A stretch of 24,148 nt of DNA from a virus, in IMG/VR virus record IMGVR_UViG_3300037809_000227, positions 1 through 24,148 of that record. One strand, 5' to 3'. The translations under genes were made by a program, and so were the position numbers. The notes beneath the pieces were generated by a model that was not told the DNA's origin, ran no database searches, and worked only from the letters and a program-made list of their open reading frames with translations. Below are positions 2,378-24,148 of the stretch, one piece after another; within the stretch, counting starts at the first letter, position 1, and every line of letters starts with the position of its first letter.

Positions 2378-3139
2378 ATGACATGGCCAACAATTACAGT
2401 TGATACAACAAACTTAGATGCAGGTGCAGATAGTCCTGCTAATGCTAGAGCAGACATTAAGCAAATGGCAGACAATGTCAATGCGATTAAAGATGAATTT
2501 GCAAATGGTGATGGTGCTAAGTTAAGCGCTATTGAAGCAAGTGCTACAGCAGACCAAACAGATGTTGAAATCAAAACTGCTTATGAAAATAATGCAGATA
2601 CTAACGCGTTTAGTGATACTGAACAATCTAAGTTAAGTGCTATTGAAGCAAGTGCTACAGCAGACCAATCAGATGCTGAAATCAAAACTGCTTATGAAAA
2701 TAACGCAGATACCAACGCTTATACAGATACTGATGTAAGCACATTGGGTTCTGCTATGCAGGGCTTAGTCGATGATACTACACCACAGTTAGGTGGTAAT
2801 TTAGACTTAAACGGCAATGCTGTACCACAGTCTTTACAATCACAGACAGGTACATCTTACACTGCAACAATTACTGATGCTGATAAGATTATCACAATGA
2901 ATAACGCAGGTGCAAATACAATTACTATACCTGCAAATAGTTCAGTAGCATATCCAAACGGCACTAAGTTAAACTTTATGCAACTTGGAACGGGTACGAC
3001 GACTGTAGCAATTACTACAGATACTTTATCCGTTAACGCGTTACTAACACTAGCCTTAAATGGGCAATACTCGATAGCAAGTGCATTGAAAGTATCAAGC
3101 ACTTCATGGGTAATATTTGGACAATTGGTCGCGGCATAA
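2378..3139 (+). CDS. Repeat-containing tail fibre protein
   Basis: This 253-residue protein is preceded by GAGGGG seven bases before the ATG. The N-terminal 50 residues (VDTTNLDAGADSPANARADI) form an attachment-type segment. Next come two near-identical 37-residue repeats built on KLSAIEASATADQ and IKTAYENNADTNA, a motif widespread in phage fibres and likely a trimeric beta or coiled stalk. A TTPQLGGNLDLNG element follows, matching the one in the preceding large fibre. The C-terminal 90 residues are beta-rich (ADKIITMNNAGANTITIPAN), like the capping domains of many fibre proteins. Its stop overlaps the next start (TAATG). Likely a side or accessory fibre; receptor unknown. Confidence 0.75.
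   Translation: MTWPTITVDTTNLDAGADSPANARADIKQMADNVNAIKDEFANGDGAKLSAIEASATADQTDVEIKTAYENNADTNAFSDTEQSKLSAIEASATADQSDAEIKTAYENNADTNAYTDTDVSTLGSAMQGLVDDTTPQLGGNLDLNGNAVPQSLQSQTGTSYTATITDADKIITMNNAGANTITIPANSSVAYPNGTKLNFMQLGTGTTTVAITTDTLSVNALLTLALNGQYSIASALKVSSTSWVIFGQLVAA
2517..2735 (+). repeat. Two tandem 111-bp coding repeats (37 residues each)
   Basis: The copies begin at 2517 and 2628 with CTAAGTTAAG and differ at only a small number of positions. They encode the KLSAIEASATADQ unit of the fibre gene. The high DNA identity points to recent duplication or gene conversion of a stalk module. Confidence 0.85.
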
Positions 3140-6335: not shown

Positions 6336-6421
6336 TGTACACAGTTAATGTTGGTACTAAAGAACATCCTGTATGGTGCGAAGTACAGCACATCGTGAAG
6401 AAGGAAAACAAATGCCACTAA
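6335..6421 (+). CDS. Possible 28-residue peptide between terminase subunits
   Basis: An ATG overlapping the small terminase stop (TAATG) opens a 28-codon frame that ends at TAA 6419-6421, inside the start of the large terminase. Its product begins MYTVNVGTKEHPVWCEVQ and has two Cys and two His residues. It may be a real small protein or a coupling leader carrying ribosomes to the large terminase start. Nothing else supports it. Confidence 0.35.
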   Translation: MYTVNVGTKEHPVWCEVQHIVKKENKCH

Positions 6422-7653
6422 GTTCAGGACAATCTACAATTACAGGTTCTGATGCTCGATTCAAAGTAGTAGTTGCTGGTAGACGATTTGGTAAGACATA
6501 CTTAGCAATGCGGGAAATTGCTAAACATGCACGATTGCCTAACAAGACTACTTTTTATGTGGCGCCTACATACAGACAAGCAAAGCAAACGGTGTGGAAG
6601 CCGTTAAAGAATAAGTTACAAGCCCTTAATTGGATTGGCAAAGTTAATGAGTCTGAGTTAACAGTTGAGTTAGTTAACGGTAGTACTATTAGTTTACGAG
6701 GAGCGGATAACTTCGATTCATTGCGTGGTGTTGGATTAGACCACTTAATAATGGACGAGTTTTCTTATACAAAGAGGGAAGCATGGACTGAAGTGTTACG
6801 ACCTACACTATCAGACACTAACGGCAGTGCAATGTTTATTACTACGCCTGCTGGCCAAGGTAATTGGTCGTTTGATATGTTCCAAAAAGGTCAACAAGAA
6901 GATGATAAAGAATGGGCATCATGGCAATTCACAACATTAGAAGGTGGTCGAGTTTCAGAAGATGAAATCGAGCAAGCAAGGAGAGATTTAGATGATAGGA
7001 CATTCCGTCAAGAATATGAAGCGAGTTTCGAAACTTACTCAGGTCAAATCTATTATAACTTTACTACGAAAACGCACATTAAGCAAGCAAAGTTTAATAC
7101 AACAGACATTAAAGAGTTACATATTGGATGCGACTTCAATGTCAACCCGATTAGTGCAGGCGTTGCAATTAAAACTAAAGAAGGTTTACATTTATTTGAT
7201 GAAGTAATCATCTACTCTAGCAACACAGATGAACTTGTACAAGAGATTAAAACACGCTACCCAACACAGCGTATTGTAATTTACCCAGACCCAGCAGGCG
7301 CTCAGCGTAAGACTAGCGCAGGTGGTAGAACAGATATTTCAATATTACAGAATGCAGGGTTTGTTGTCAAGTATAAGAAGAAGCACCCACCTGTGCGAGA
7401 TAGAATCAATGCAGTTAATTCGGCATTAGAATCGAGTGATGGTACTGTTAGGGTACGAATTGATGCTAAGTGTAAGCATGTTATTAAAGGCTTGCAGAAA
7501 CAAATTTACAAAGAAGGCACTCAAGTACCTGATAAAAATTCAGGCTATGACCACACTAACGATGCTATTGGGTACATGATTGAATATTTGTACCCAATTC
7601 GCAAAGAAGTACCAAAGTACGCACAAAGTACTTGGGGCGTAGGCACAATTTAA
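6412..7653 (+). CDS. terL: Terminase large subunit (packaging ATPase and nuclease)
   Basis: I choose the ATG at 6412 (413 residues) over the in-frame ATG at 6373 because AAGGA lies about six bases upstream and the ATPase domain begins at once. The Walker A is AGRRFGKT (residues 22-29). Walker B is LIMDE (acidic pair 115-116). The coupling motif is TTP (144-146). The C-terminal RNase-H-like nuclease shows GCDFNVNP (Asp241), YPDPAG (Asp293) and DHTNDA (380-385), giving a plausible metal-binding Asp triad at 241, 293 and 384. The protein translocates phage DNA into the prohead through the portal and cuts the concatemer. Length is normal for a compact terminase. Confidence 0.93.
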   Translation: MPLSSGQSTITGSDARFKVVVAGRRFGKTYLAMREIAKHARLPNKTTFYVAPTYRQAKQTVWKPLKNKLQALNWIGKVNESELTVELVNGSTISLRGADNFDSLRGVGLDHLIMDEFSYTKREAWTEVLRPTLSDTNGSAMFITTPAGQGNWSFDMFQKGQQEDDKEWASWQFTTLEGGRVSEDEIEQARRDLDDRTFRQEYEASFETYSGQIYYNFTTKTHIKQAKFNTTDIKELHIGCDFNVNPISAGVAIKTKEGLHLFDEVIIYSSNTDELVQEIKTRYPTQRIVIYPDPAGAQRKTSAGGRTDISILQNAGFVVKYKKKHPPVRDRINAVNSALESSDGTVRVRIDAKCKHVIKGLQKQIYKEGTQVPDKNSGYDHTNDAIGYMIEYLYPIRKEVPKYAQSTWGVGTI

Positions 7654-20808: not shown

Positions 20809-21134
20809 TGATTAATCAACAAGACCAATCATTGCGCGATAAGTGGATGGATATAATTGATTCAATCGATAAAACAAAGTTCAGCACTGAATTCATCGAT
20901 AGGATTCACATTACCTTCACTACAGAAACGAAGTTGCCCAACATAATCGATGTTAAAAAACTAAAAGCACTTGATGCTTATATCGACTTAAATCAAATCG
21001 ACGATATTATAGATGCGGCTTTGCTTGAAGTTCAAGACGAAATTGCATTTCTAGATTTGGTAGTTGATGTTGAAGCAGTGATGAAGGAAGCAATTCCAGC
21101 AACAAGGCAGTATTTAAAATCATTGCATAGGTAG
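20805..21134 (+). CDS. Acidic helical protein of unknown function
   Basis: A TTG in frame at 20787 extends the frame, but the ATG at 20805 is preferred because it forms an ATGA overlap with the preceding stop. The 109-residue product begins MMINQQDQSLRDKWMDIIDS and is mostly helical and acidic (DLNQIDDIIDAALLEVQDEI). No catalytic pattern or membrane segment. It is the last + strand gene of the morphogenesis block, and its 3' end overlaps the convergent minus-strand gene by 15 bases. Similar small proteins occur in marine phages, but I cannot name a family. Confidence 0.6.
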   Translation: MMINQQDQSLRDKWMDIIDSIDKTKFSTEFIDRIHITFTTETKLPNIIDVKKLKALDAYIDLNQIDDIIDAALLEVQDEIAFLDLVVDVEAVMKEAIPATRQYLKSLHR

Positions 21135-21587
21135 CAATACCATTAGCCAAGTCCAAGCAATATCGCCGTCGTTGTAAACTGCGTGCATTGGTCTGTAATC
21201 AAATGATATAAGTTCACCTGCGTTTAATTGAATTAATTCATCTTCAACAACAATACAACAATCATGCGCTTGTAAAGTTAGCACATGTGTGATGAATGGA
21301 TTATCGTGTGTGTGGGGTTTAATAACACTATGTGCGTTAAGCGAACCAAATGAAGCCGCTATTGCACCCATGTCAGTTATTAGTTGGGTAGTGATAGGCG
21401 ACTGTCGTTTGAAATTATCAATATCATCTTGAGCAAACACACCAGCATCTTCATCTTCGAGTTGCAACGGAGCAAGATACCAATCATCGCTTCGCCAATC
21501 ATCAAGTTTGATTAAATTATCCAATGAATTGAATTCTTCTGTTATAGCGAGTAAATTCTCTTTAGTTACTAACGACCTTACTTTCAT
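21120..21587 (-). CDS. Cupin-fold metal-binding or oxygenase-like protein
   Basis: A 155-residue protein on the minus strand with a strong site, AGGAGA, before its ATG. The C-terminal half has a double-stranded beta-helix pattern: PHTHDNP (His92, His94), a further His101, then GELISFDYRPMHAVYND with Gly124, His135 and Asn139. Gly-x10-His-x3-Asn matches cupin motif 2, and HxH matches the start of motif 1, though its usual Glu is missing. The same histidine spacing resembles aspartyl/asparaginyl beta-hydroxylases, but the arginines that bind 2-oxoglutarate there are absent. Metal binding is likely; substrate unknown. Last gene of a three-gene minus-strand group, convergent with tail genes. Confidence 0.55.
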   Translation of the reverse strand: MKVRSLVTKENLLAITEEFNSLDNLIKLDDWRSDDWYLAPLQLEDEDAGVFAQDDIDNFKRQSPITTQLITDMGAIAASFGSLNAHSVIKPHTHDNPFITHVLTLQAHDCCIVVEDELIQLNAGELISFDYRPMHAVYNDGDIAWTWLMVLLPMQ

Positions 21588-21605: not shown

Positions 21606-21875
21606 CTATGTGTTGCGCTTGGTAATTGGGATTTTGAACTTCTTTCCACAACTACAACGACCAATCCATTGCTTACCTGATTTAGATAATCTCCAATGTA
21701 TTAATGGGTTGCTGTTGCGCACTTCATCGCAATTGCTACAATTGAATTCAGCATTTTTTTCAATGCCAATTGCTACATTACCTTCAACAACAAACTCAGC
21801 ATTATTCAAATGACCTTTTGTTATTCGATATAATTTGTAATTATCAGCGAAGTGCTTACGCAAAGGCTCCTTCAT
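21606..21875 (-). CDS. Small zinc-ribbon-like protein
   Basis: An 89-residue basic protein on the minus strand. Its start overlaps the upstream gene's stop by four bases (ATGA). It has paired cysteines, C46-x2-C49 and C74-x-C76, with a CSCGKKF end, in the style of a zinc ribbon. The region between contains LIHWRLSKSGKQWIGRC. Such small ribbons bind nucleic acid or protein in phages, often as early regulators. No catalytic residues are visible. Function is not recognised. Confidence 0.6.
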   Translation of the reverse strand: MKEPLRKHFADNYKLYRITKGHLNNAEFVVEGNVAIGIEKNAEFNCSNCDEVRNSNPLIHWRLSKSGKQWIGRCSCGKKFKIPITKRNT

Positions 21876-22225
21876 TCAGTATTGTCCAATGGATATTTTT
21901 TAAAGAAAGCAACCTTAGCCTTTGTGCTTGAAACTTCGTCGTAGTACTTTTTACGCCATTCAGTGTGCTTGTCGGTTTTACGGTACTCTTGCATATATTC
22001 ACGGATGTAAGTGCGATATTCATCACCTTTCTCTTTGCGATATGCTTTTTGCCATGCTGCTGCACGGGCTTTCTGTACAGGGTCATTCTTATAACGCTCG
22101 TCTGTTATCTTCTTGCAATCAATGCAGAATCTGCCTTTTACTTTACGATTGTAATGACCTCGTTCGCAAGGCTTGTCGGGTACATAAGATTCTAATCCCA
22201 AATCGATTGCTTCTTGATACTTCAT
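21872..22225 (-). CDS. Zinc-finger-like basic protein (endonuclease-associated type)
   Basis: A 117-residue, strongly basic protein on the minus strand, first gene of the minus-strand group. AGGAAA lies five bases before its ATG. Near the N-terminus it carries C20-x3-H24 and C34-x2-C37 in the phrase PCERGHYNRKVKGRFCIDCK. This finger is common in phage proteins linked to HNH or homing endonucleases. The rest is a Lys/Arg/Tyr-rich helix (about 43-108), suited to binding DNA. No HNH residues are seen, so it may be a lone finger protein or a decayed endonuclease. A weak promoter candidate lies just upstream. Confidence 0.58.
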   Translation of the reverse strand: MKYQEAIDLGLESYVPDKPCERGHYNRKVKGRFCIDCKKITDERYKNDPVQKARAAAWQKAYRKEKGDEYRTYIREYMQEYRKTDKHTEWRKKYYDEVSSTKAKVAFFKKYPLDNTE

Positions 22226-22491: not shown

Positions 22492-22537
22492 AACTATTAC
22501 ATCACGACGGTGTGCACAGCACACCTCGTTAATAGTT
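22492..22537 (+). other. Long interrupted stem-loop before the polymerase-like gene
   Basis: Three nested complementary arms: AACTATTA/TAATAGTT (8 pairs), ACGA/TCGT (4) and GGTGTGC/GCACACC (7) around an ACA loop. The only interruptions are CATC (22500-22503) and a C (22508) on the left side. No T-run follows, so it is not a terminator. It could be a leader RNA element, a protein operator or a replication structure. Confidence 0.7.
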
Positions 22538-22566
22538 AACTAAACTTGGAAAACAAAAACCCACAC

Positions 22567-24018
22567 ATGATTACTACTAACACACAGACAAACCCAACTA
22601 CTAACCAAGTACTAACCAAAGCAATTGACATTAAGACTAAAGCAGTTAATAAACACAGACATGATTATATTAGTAAGACATCAGACCTAATAGAAAGCAA
22701 GTACAAGTTCTCAGTAGTTAAGGCAAGTAAGCAAGTTCAAATCATTTATGATGTAATAGTTAAGCAGTTGGTTAGTAAAGCAATGAATGGACTAGGTGGT
22801 AATACCTTCTATGAAATCAGTACAGCAGGTAAGTTTTCAAAGAAGTACTTCTATGATATTAGGATTAGTGTGAAAGGTAAACCTATTAGTGCTTGGTCTT
22901 TGATGCAAGAACTAAACCCATTGCTTATAAAAACCTACGAAGGTAATCAATACGAAGCAGGTGAGTGTGTTATTAACAAAGACTTCGATTCAGTTATTAA
23001 AAACATTGTTCAGTACAACGGTGCTTATCTAGTTAATCTGATTGAAAGCCAACGCAAGTTAACAACTATCAAGACTAAGGCAACTAAGAAAAAGAAGGGT
23101 AGTGTTAAGCAAGTGCTGATTAAAGGTAAAGTTGATAAAATCAAAATCAATGCTGATTCATTACAAGACTTCGTCAATGAAACAACACACGCTATGTTGT
23201 CTGCTAATGATGATGCGTACGCAGAACTGAAAAAGGTGAAAGCCATTTCTAAACAACTGCTACTGATTAATTCAGTTAATGATTATGTACCATTGATGAT
23301 TAAATTTTCACATTCGGGTAGAAAGTACTACCGAGGTTCTAAGCACACCAACTTACAGCAGATGAAGAAGGTTATCAGAACTGCTTGTTTTAAAGGTTGC
23401 ACTGAGATTGACATTAATGCGTGTTCTGCTCAGTTCTTAATTCAACAAGCAAAGCAGTACGGTTGTTCTAGTAAAACATTAAGGCAACTCAAAGCAAATT
23501 CATTCAAGAAGAAGATTCGTTACGATGTCGCTAAGCATGTTTACGGTGTTGCTACTGAAGAAACTATCAAAGGTGCAAAAGAGATAATCACAGCGATTGG
23601 GTTAGGTGGTAGTTTAACTTCGCTTAGTCATAAACACAACAAACTACTCAGTCGTGGCACTGTAACCGTAGAGCAACTTAAAAAAGCACAACTGCATTCA
23701 TTCGTTCGACCTTACTACAATGAAGTTCGAGCAATCAATCAATCTATATTCGATGGTAATCAACACCTAGTCGATAAAGACTTCTTACACAAAGACAAAG
23801 ACATCAAGCAACCGCTTCAAAAAGGTAAAGTTAGCACTTACCTGTATCAGAAGTTCGAAGCAGAATCTATGAAAACAGCACTTAAAGGTTTTAAAGATAA
23901 TATCAGACTACAAGTACATGATGGGGTTTATTTGGAAAATCTCACAATAACTGAAATTAATAAAATTAAATTAAGATTTTCCAAGATGGATTTAACTATT
24001 ACAGTTAAGCAATTGTAA
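22567..24018 (+). CDS. Divergent family-A-like polymerase / replication protein
   Basis: Start uncertain: ATG at 22567 (483 residues) or TTG at 22546; neither has a clear ribosome site. Numbered from the ATG, residues 251-272 show GR then NLQQ, as in family-A polymerases (GR..NLQ..R). EIDINAC (280-286) fits motif A with Asp282. RYDVAK and YG (318-327) may be a shortened motif B. YQKFEAESMKTAL then LQVHDGVYLE (448-457) fits the region around motif C, with His451 and Asp452. No 3'-5' exonuclease motifs are seen in the helical N-terminal half; a Lys-rich linker lies near 170-185. It may synthesise DNA or RNA, or be a plasmid-type replication initiator. Palm identity is likely; exact role is not established. 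Confidence 0.6.
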   Translation: MITTNTQTNPTTNQVLTKAIDIKTKAVNKHRHDYISKTSDLIESKYKFSVVKASKQVQIIYDVIVKQLVSKAMNGLGGNTFYEISTAGKFSKKYFYDIRISVKGKPISAWSLMQELNPLLIKTYEGNQYEAGECVINKDFDSVIKNIVQYNGAYLVNLIESQRKLTTIKTKATKKKKGSVKQVLIKGKVDKIKINADSLQDFVNETTHAMLSANDDAYAELKKVKAISKQLLLINSVNDYVPLMIKFSHSGRKYYRGSKHTNLQQMKKVIRTACFKGCTEIDINACSAQFLIQQAKQYGCSSKTLRQLKANSFKKKIRYDVAKHVYGVATEETIKGAKEIITAIGLGGSLTSLSHKHNKLLSRGTVTVEQLKKAQLHSFVRPYYNEVRAINQSIFDGNQHLVDKDFLHKDKDIKQPLQKGKVSTYLYQKFEAESMKTALKGFKDNIRLQVHDGVYLENLTITEINKIKLRFSKMDLTITVKQL

Positions 24019-24021
24019 ATC

Positions 24022-24096
24022 ATGGCAACAAAGTTAATTACGCTCAAGAAAGCGTGTAACATATGTCGTTTAACTAAACTTGAGGTTCAAACATGA
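24022..24096 (+). CDS. Possible 24-residue CxxC peptide
   Basis: A short frame begins three bases after the polymerase-like stop and ends in an ATGA overlap with the next start. Product: MATKLITLKKACNICRLTKL and four more residues, with Cys12-x2-Cys15. The tight coupling favours translation, but its size gives little independent support. Confidence 0.35.
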   Translation: MATKLITLKKACNICRLTKLEVQT

Positions 24097-24148
24097 TTCA
24101 CACAAGCAAAGTAATAACCAAAGACCGACTAAAAGATTTGCTGTTTTG
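24093..24148 (+). CDS. Start of a gene cut by the right edge
   Basis: ATG in an ATGA overlap, open to the edge: MIHTSKVITKDRLKDLLF. Too short to identify; GAGG lies about eight bases upstream. Confidence 0.5.
   Translation, partial: MIHTSKVITKDRLKDLLF

Follow-up and report, generated by a model that had tools for sequence, protein, structure and literature searches.

It is common for small tailed phages to lack recognisable replication genes, and such phages are taken to depend on the host for everything. The question raised by the present locus, which lies near the end of the window (the whole stretch of viral DNA analysed, 24,148 nucleotides), is what kind of enzyme is encoded by an open reading frame that a first-pass annotation, made from the letters alone, had described as a divergent polymerase, and whether this enzyme is a concrete candidate for a replication function in such phages. 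The features on which the answer is built are as follows (residue numbers are those of the window protein).

22567..24018, + strand: coding sequence of the exonuclease-free family-A-like polymerase, 483 amino acids (open reading frame, orthologs, AlphaFold2/Foldseek)
22567..23151, + strand: N-terminal region, residues 1-195, without exonuclease signature and poorly conserved beyond the clade of the window
23152..23280, + strand: helix pair 196-210 / 215-238, a minimal thumb-like module (AlphaFold2 secondary structure, pLDDT 74-89)
23287..23334, + strand: beta-hairpin 241-256, bearing the invariant G251-R252-x-Y254 (family alignment; R252 falls on the PolA 'GR' motif)
23350..23385, + strand: N262-L-Q264 ... 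I270-R271-x-A273 motif, equivalent to NLQ...R.AF of PolA (family alignment, profile comparison)
23404..23424, + strand: motif A, EIDINAC, with catalytic D282, and S287 at the steric-gate position, Klenow E710 (alignments)
23566..23607, + strand: motif B, the O-helix of the fingers, I334...K338...T342...L346-G347, with K758 retained and R754 gone (family alignment)
23845..23874, + strand: Q-helix YQKFEAESMK (427-436), with invariant Q428 and E431, Q849 equivalent (family alignment)
23908..23937, + strand: motif C, LQVHDGVYLE, with catalytic H451-D452, HDG replacing HDE (alignments)
24094..24148, + strand: beginning of the following gene (MIHTSKVITK...), truncated at the window end (orthologs, 206-252 amino acids)

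The reading frame and all the motifs named in the first-pass annotation are present at the residues it gave. We place the start codon at the ATG at 22567; MI.TNT is common to the window protein and two orthologs, and an in-frame TTG at 22546 shows no conservation among orthologs. There is no clear Shine-Dalgarno sequence ahead of this ATG (22535-22567) in the window or in two of the contigs with orthologs, G010 and G007. The codons of the two catalytic aspartates are GAC at 23410-23412 (D282) and GAT at 23920-23922 (D452), and the helix pair immediately precedes the hairpin that bears the arginine. Orthologs of the downstream gene, which has no Pfam match, are found directly after the polymerase or two small genes later.

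Used as a single query, the protein gave no useful match in Pfam, PHROGs, PDB sequences, plasmids, viral contigs or genome contigs. Sister contigs were found through the TerL gene, and two of them, G004 and G007, carry orthologs (45% identity to the window protein in both cases); a third ortholog, in G010 (59%), came from an alignment scan. A weak tblastn match (E 0.01) to Desulfovibrio phage 7757 led to the shared motif set, and a degenerate DNA pattern with the Desulfovibrio spacing returned six matches, all true relatives and two of them identical; L028, picked up by the first motif pattern scan, was a false match. The relatives are now ten in number: the three orthologs, five proteins of uncultured phages, the Desulfovibrio phage 7757 protein (L002:2209-4509; 767 amino acids, with a C-terminal extension of ~250 amino acids) and, weakly, gp030 of Ma-LMM01 (L058:7776-9296), which is annotated as hypothetical, is phrog_34692-like and lies beside two transposases. 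When each member was left out of the profile in turn, all were recovered with E below 1e-22 except gp030 (E 1.2); its membership therefore depends on phrog_34692 and on a relative found with the pattern, L053, which matches phrog_34692 at E 1.4e-5 and gp030 at E 2e-3. Searching PDB sequences with the family profile gave chance matches only, searching genome contigs with the catalytic-domain alignment gave zero relatives, and none of the four members scanned matches PF00476, even at E 10. Weak matches to DUF5927, to a 'terminase' PHROG and to TnsA were discarded as low-complexity or chance matches in the wrong region.

The link to family A emerges from profile-profile comparison. Aligned by hhalign with phage PolA, the 11-member profile covers 202 columns with all motifs in register (score 54.2, E 4e-6), the maximum among 200 column shuffles being 23.8; a four-member profile compared with 12 phage PolA proteins scored 50.2, against at most 24.9 for 300 column shuffles and 15.1 for the reversed profile. 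The pairs formed are NLQ with NLAQIP, D282 with the motif A Asp, K338 with the O-helix Lys, Q428 with the Q-helix Gln and H451-D452 with motif C, so that D282 and D452 fall on the columns of the two catalytic aspartates of PolA. The score drops to 30.8 once the three most distant members are left out, and the link with PolA therefore depends on the breadth of the family. A stronger match than with PolA was obtained with five divPolA2 proteins (E 1.4e-7, probability 94).

The same comparison bears on the idea that the protein is a phage transcription enzyme, that is an RNA polymerase derived, as those of T7 and N4, from a PolA-like ancestor and starting at hairpin or other promoters. Against eight phage RNA polymerases the family profile gave no match (E 0.14 over 40 columns, while PolA is reached at the E-value given above), and on this ground kinship with the N4 or T7 RNA polymerase was rejected. 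The first-pass annotation had recognised the motif order of both family-A DNA polymerases and single-subunit RNA polymerases; the former half of this statement stands, and the latter is without profile support.

A model predicted from the single sequence was of no use (pLDDT 35), but an AlphaFold2 model from nine family members reached a pLDDT of 71 and a pTM of 0.58, with values mostly of 75-92 in the palm and fingers. Its N-terminal domain is short, mainly helical and of low confidence, with pLDDT 28-60 over much of residues 1-195. In a Foldseek search against the PDB the 50 best matches are all family-A DNA polymerases (top 6vdd, E 1.2e-5), which again argues against an RNA polymerase and agrees with the palm fold that the first-pass reading called for. 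The differing N-terminal half keeps the TM-scores to these matches modest (0.32-0.39). In a viral structure library, two uncharacterised proteins of uncultured phages match over nearly the full length (E 7e-16 with TM 0.62, and E 2e-12). The fold result is only partly independent of the profile result, since the model was built with nine of the same members. Taken together, motifs, profile and fold leave little doubt that the protein is an exonuclease-free polymerase of the family-A fold.

Ten residues are invariant in the 11 aligned proteins: R252, Q264, R271, D282, K338, G347, Q428, E431, H451 and D452. The invariance of R252, Q264, D282, K338, Q428, H451 and D452, and the register kept with PolA, put the motif set beyond chance. 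It also weighs against a non-catalytic derivative that binds DNA or RNA, for instance as a repressor or as an initiator without synthesis: several canonical active-site side chains are indeed replaced, but both catalytic Asp, His451, Lys338 and Arg252 are kept in very diverged members, and we regard such a derivative as very improbable. The replacements affect the positions of Klenow E710 (S/V/H in the family, S287 in the window protein), R754 (I/V/P, I334 in the window protein), F762 (T, with L in two members) and E883, the Glu of HDE (G or C, giving HDG or HDC), and no Asp is invariant in the fingers. In the alignments the two metal-binding Asp are thus retained and the residues that exclude ribonucleotides lost. 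Klenow mutants are the basis for treating E710 as the 2'-OH gate, and a small residue (S/V/H) at this position would remove that gate. The loss of the ribonucleotide-excluding residues therefore makes the family directly relevant to the question of how primases and RNA polymerases arose from family-A polymerases.

Where the architecture is concerned, part of the first-pass description has to be revised. It had seen a short fingers region, with about 125 residues from motif A to the helix before motif C, and a possible shortened motif B. The actual distance, from D282 to Q428, is 146 residues; K338..T342...L346-G347 are all there, with no truncation. In Klenow numbering the corresponding interval, D705 to Q849, is 144, and motif A to motif C is 177, as compared with 170 here. 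Since the motif spacing matches that of Klenow, the fingers are not shortened. The absence of an exonuclease pattern from the N-terminal half, on the other hand, was borne out: residues 1-240 have no Pfam match, hence none to a 3'-5' exonuclease domain, and Pfam and PHROG searches with the N-terminal region gave nothing above noise. What is missing relative to the canonical enzymes is the exonuclease (proofreading) domain, not the fingers.

What the enzyme does may be approached from the genomes that carry it. The two ends of G004 (25.8 kb) fall within one tail gene, and an essentially full structural gene set is found in G010 (31.8 kb) as well as in G016 (26.2 kb); these contigs therefore appear near-complete. 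In them, and in the likewise near-complete-looking G015 (48 kb), the polymerase is the largest recognisable non-structural gene, and in G004, G010 and G016 there is no other large one. Pfam searches found no PolA (PF00476), PolB (PF00136), DnaB (PF03796) or D5_N (PF08706) in the window, G004 and G007, nor in G010, G011, G015 and G016, contigs that may be incomplete; D5_N is absent from the eight records searched for it. Of ten further non-structural proteins, nine of G010 and one of G004, none reaches a Pfam match better than E 0.019, and no linkage to a resolvase, integrase, transposase or D5 helicase was seen in G004 or G010. The polymerase is thus apparently the sole replication-type gene of these 26-48 kb phage contigs, and it may therefore start the copying of their DNA.

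The distribution of the gene is informative as well. Ma-LMM01 also encodes a canonical PolA, and both a PolB and a DnaB are encoded by Desulfovibrio phage 7757; the family is therefore not the main replicase in every phage. Among annotated phages, the nearest TerL relatives belong to pelagiphage HTVC112P (54% identity with the window TerL, 6373-7653) and to phage DSL-LC06, and hmmsearch found the polymerase gene in neither; a divergent copy hidden in these two genomes was considered and dismissed, the profile search being negative. This type of phage is therefore viable without the polymerase, and replication genes appear to be swapped within the group.

Other genes of the window may be mentioned here. 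A 117-aa protein encoded divergently to the polymerase (21872-22225, - strand) is kept in all four genomes of the window clade and weakly resembles phage endonuclease PHROGs. An aspartyl/asparaginyl beta-hydroxylase-like protein (21120-21587, - strand; PF05118, E 4.5e-10) adjoins the tail genes, its G010 homolog having a different place and orientation. A tail-like protein at 2378-3139 has internal repeats, KLSAIEASATADQ.D.EIKTAYENNADTNA.., occurring twice.

The best explanation, to which we give a probability of roughly 55%, is that the protein is a catalytically competent polymerase that would prime or initiate phage replication. In this scheme the predicted polymerase would prime DNA synthesis on the phage genome, and perhaps extend this initial DNA, and host replication proteins would then complete the copying. 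The gene context fits the role of replication polymerase or initiator put forward in the first-pass annotation, and the priming role gains support because priming was predicted by Iyer et al. for related enzymes and demonstrated for CcPol-MP. Against the initiator reading are the lack of a recognisable helicase or SSB partner, whereas the published TV-Pols and CcPol accompany D5-type helicases, the loss of the R of RxxxK, the absence of the gene from HTVC112P and DSL-LC06 and the coexistence of the distant relatives with other polymerases.

This coexistence also fits a DNA polymerase that needs primers from the host primase and serves to elongate or repair phage DNA, as do a fold nearest to PolA and the fact that CcPol without MP only extends primers (PMC10061031). 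We find this doubtful, however: a processive DNA polymerase would not usually have lost E710, R754 and the HDE Glu, proofreading is absent, and no other priming or repair gene is seen beside the polymerase.

A further element of the locus may concern initiation.

22504..22529, + strand: hairpin ACGA-C-GGTGTGC-ACA-GCACACC-TCGT (conserved, compensatory changes, single-stranded DNA fold)

The hairpin ends 37 nt upstream of the polymerase ATG and has a core of a 7-bp stem and a 3-nt loop (triloops ACA, GCA and GAA); with its outer arms (22492-22537, 46 nt) it forms a 19-bp bulged stem. It occurs once per genome in all four genomes of the window clade, and not in the other loci. It lies shortly 5' of the polymerase start in three genomes and 60 nt inside the open reading frame in G004. 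Four of its 11 pairs show double-sided compensatory changes and none is broken, a result matched in 8 of 500 shuffles; since there are only three distinct sequences, this covariation is suggestive but no proof. When the 46-nt element is folded as DNA, its z-scores are -7.2 (window), -7.0 (G010), -5.0 (G007) and -2.4 (G004). In Rfam, the leader gave a chance snoRNA match only. The shift from the leader into the coding sequence suggests that the hairpin acts either in the DNA, as an origin or priming site, or in the mRNA, as an operator that withstands translation.

A hairpin of this shape, 7 bp with a 3-nt loop, recalls the promoters of the N4 virion RNA polymerase, which is a lead only. Its position ahead of the gene is one of the points in favour of a transcription enzyme, together with the replaced steric-gate Glu (S/V/H), the T at the F762 position and a GRxY like that of single-subunit RNA polymerases; the authors of the divPolA2 study made a similar suggestion (PMC11348598). 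But there is one hairpin per genome, which is therefore not a promoter set, and with the profile and fold results we consider an RNA polymerase unlikely. If the enzyme is a priming polymerase, as we prefer, the conserved hairpin is a specific candidate template for it. One could even imagine, although we hold it to be quite improbable, that initiation takes one enzyme: lacking a steric gate, the polymerase would recognise the one bulged hairpin, located at its gene, and start synthesis there; if so, a 26-32 kb phage would initiate replication without encoding a helicase, a DnaG or AEP primase or an origin protein.

How does the family relate to systems already described? TV-Pols are stand-alone exonuclease-free polymerases of transposons, Sputnik and Ma-LMM01, for which priming was predicted (Iyer, Abhiman, Aravind 2008; PMC2579912). 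The present family resembles them in being stand-alone, 400-600 amino acids long and without a nuclease, and in its two-helix thumb, Arg-bearing hairpin and two Asp. It differs in that RxxxK lacks its R (K338 is kept, position 334 is I/V/P), the fingers have no conserved Asp, and there is no linkage to a D5 helicase, resolvase or transposase. In sequence the two may be related through gp030 of Ma-LMM01, the single candidate link, identified by context and joined to the family by the weak profile match described above (E 1.2, with L053/phrog_34692 at 1.4e-5); gp030 is the probable Ma-LMM01 member, which Iyer et al. list within an integrated element (PMC2579912).

The divPolA2 proteins, described in 2024, are extra thumb-less PolA of barbaviruses, Vibrio phages and ICP1 (PMC11348598). 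They share with the family an exonuclease-free palm-fingers core of 400-500 amino acids with its own N-terminal domain, a GRxY..G..Q....R motif, motif C and, in some members, a Lys with T at +4. However, there is no pairwise match between the two, and motif C reads FDE/HDS in divPolA2 and HDG here. A tblastn search with divPolA2 AUR84708 returned 271 records, by organism name only phages of Vibrio, Rheinheimera, Aeromonas, Pseudoalteromonas, Shewanella, Pseudaeromonas and Pseudomonas. The Barbavirus copy adjoins a PolB, whereas neither a PolA nor a PolB was found with the polymerase in the window or in G004, G007, G010, G011, G015 and G016, contigs that may be incomplete.

The family-A polymerase complex CcPol-MP of SCCmec primes DNA de novo (PMC7581432, PMC10061031). 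The likeness with this complex, a PolA-SSB primase, consists of a family-A core, the lack of an active exonuclease and a mobile genome. CcPol is nevertheless near bacterial Pol I, retaining E710 and F762 (PMC7581432), and is accompanied by an OB-fold partner and a helicase, neither of which was recognised among the genes here. With canonical phage PolA (T7 gp5, PF00476) the family has NLQ, A, B, Q-helix and C in register and with equal spacing, but it has no Pfam match and no exonuclease, and E710, R754 and the HDE Glu are replaced. With the single-subunit RNA polymerases (T7, N4) it has in common the GRxY...NxQ motif and a small steric-gate residue, but no profile match, and its Q-helix has the invariant Gln of DNA polymerases. 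The first-pass view of a distinct lineage is thus correct insofar as the family lies outside Pfam and PHROGs, and too strong insofar as it is kin to known exonuclease-free family-A-like polymerases. Because two TV-Pol features and one divPolA2 feature are absent from it, we file the family as TV-Pol/divPolA2-like, yet as a separate new branch, one that has escaped both databases and that ties together the observations made on TV-Pol, divPolA2 and CcPol.
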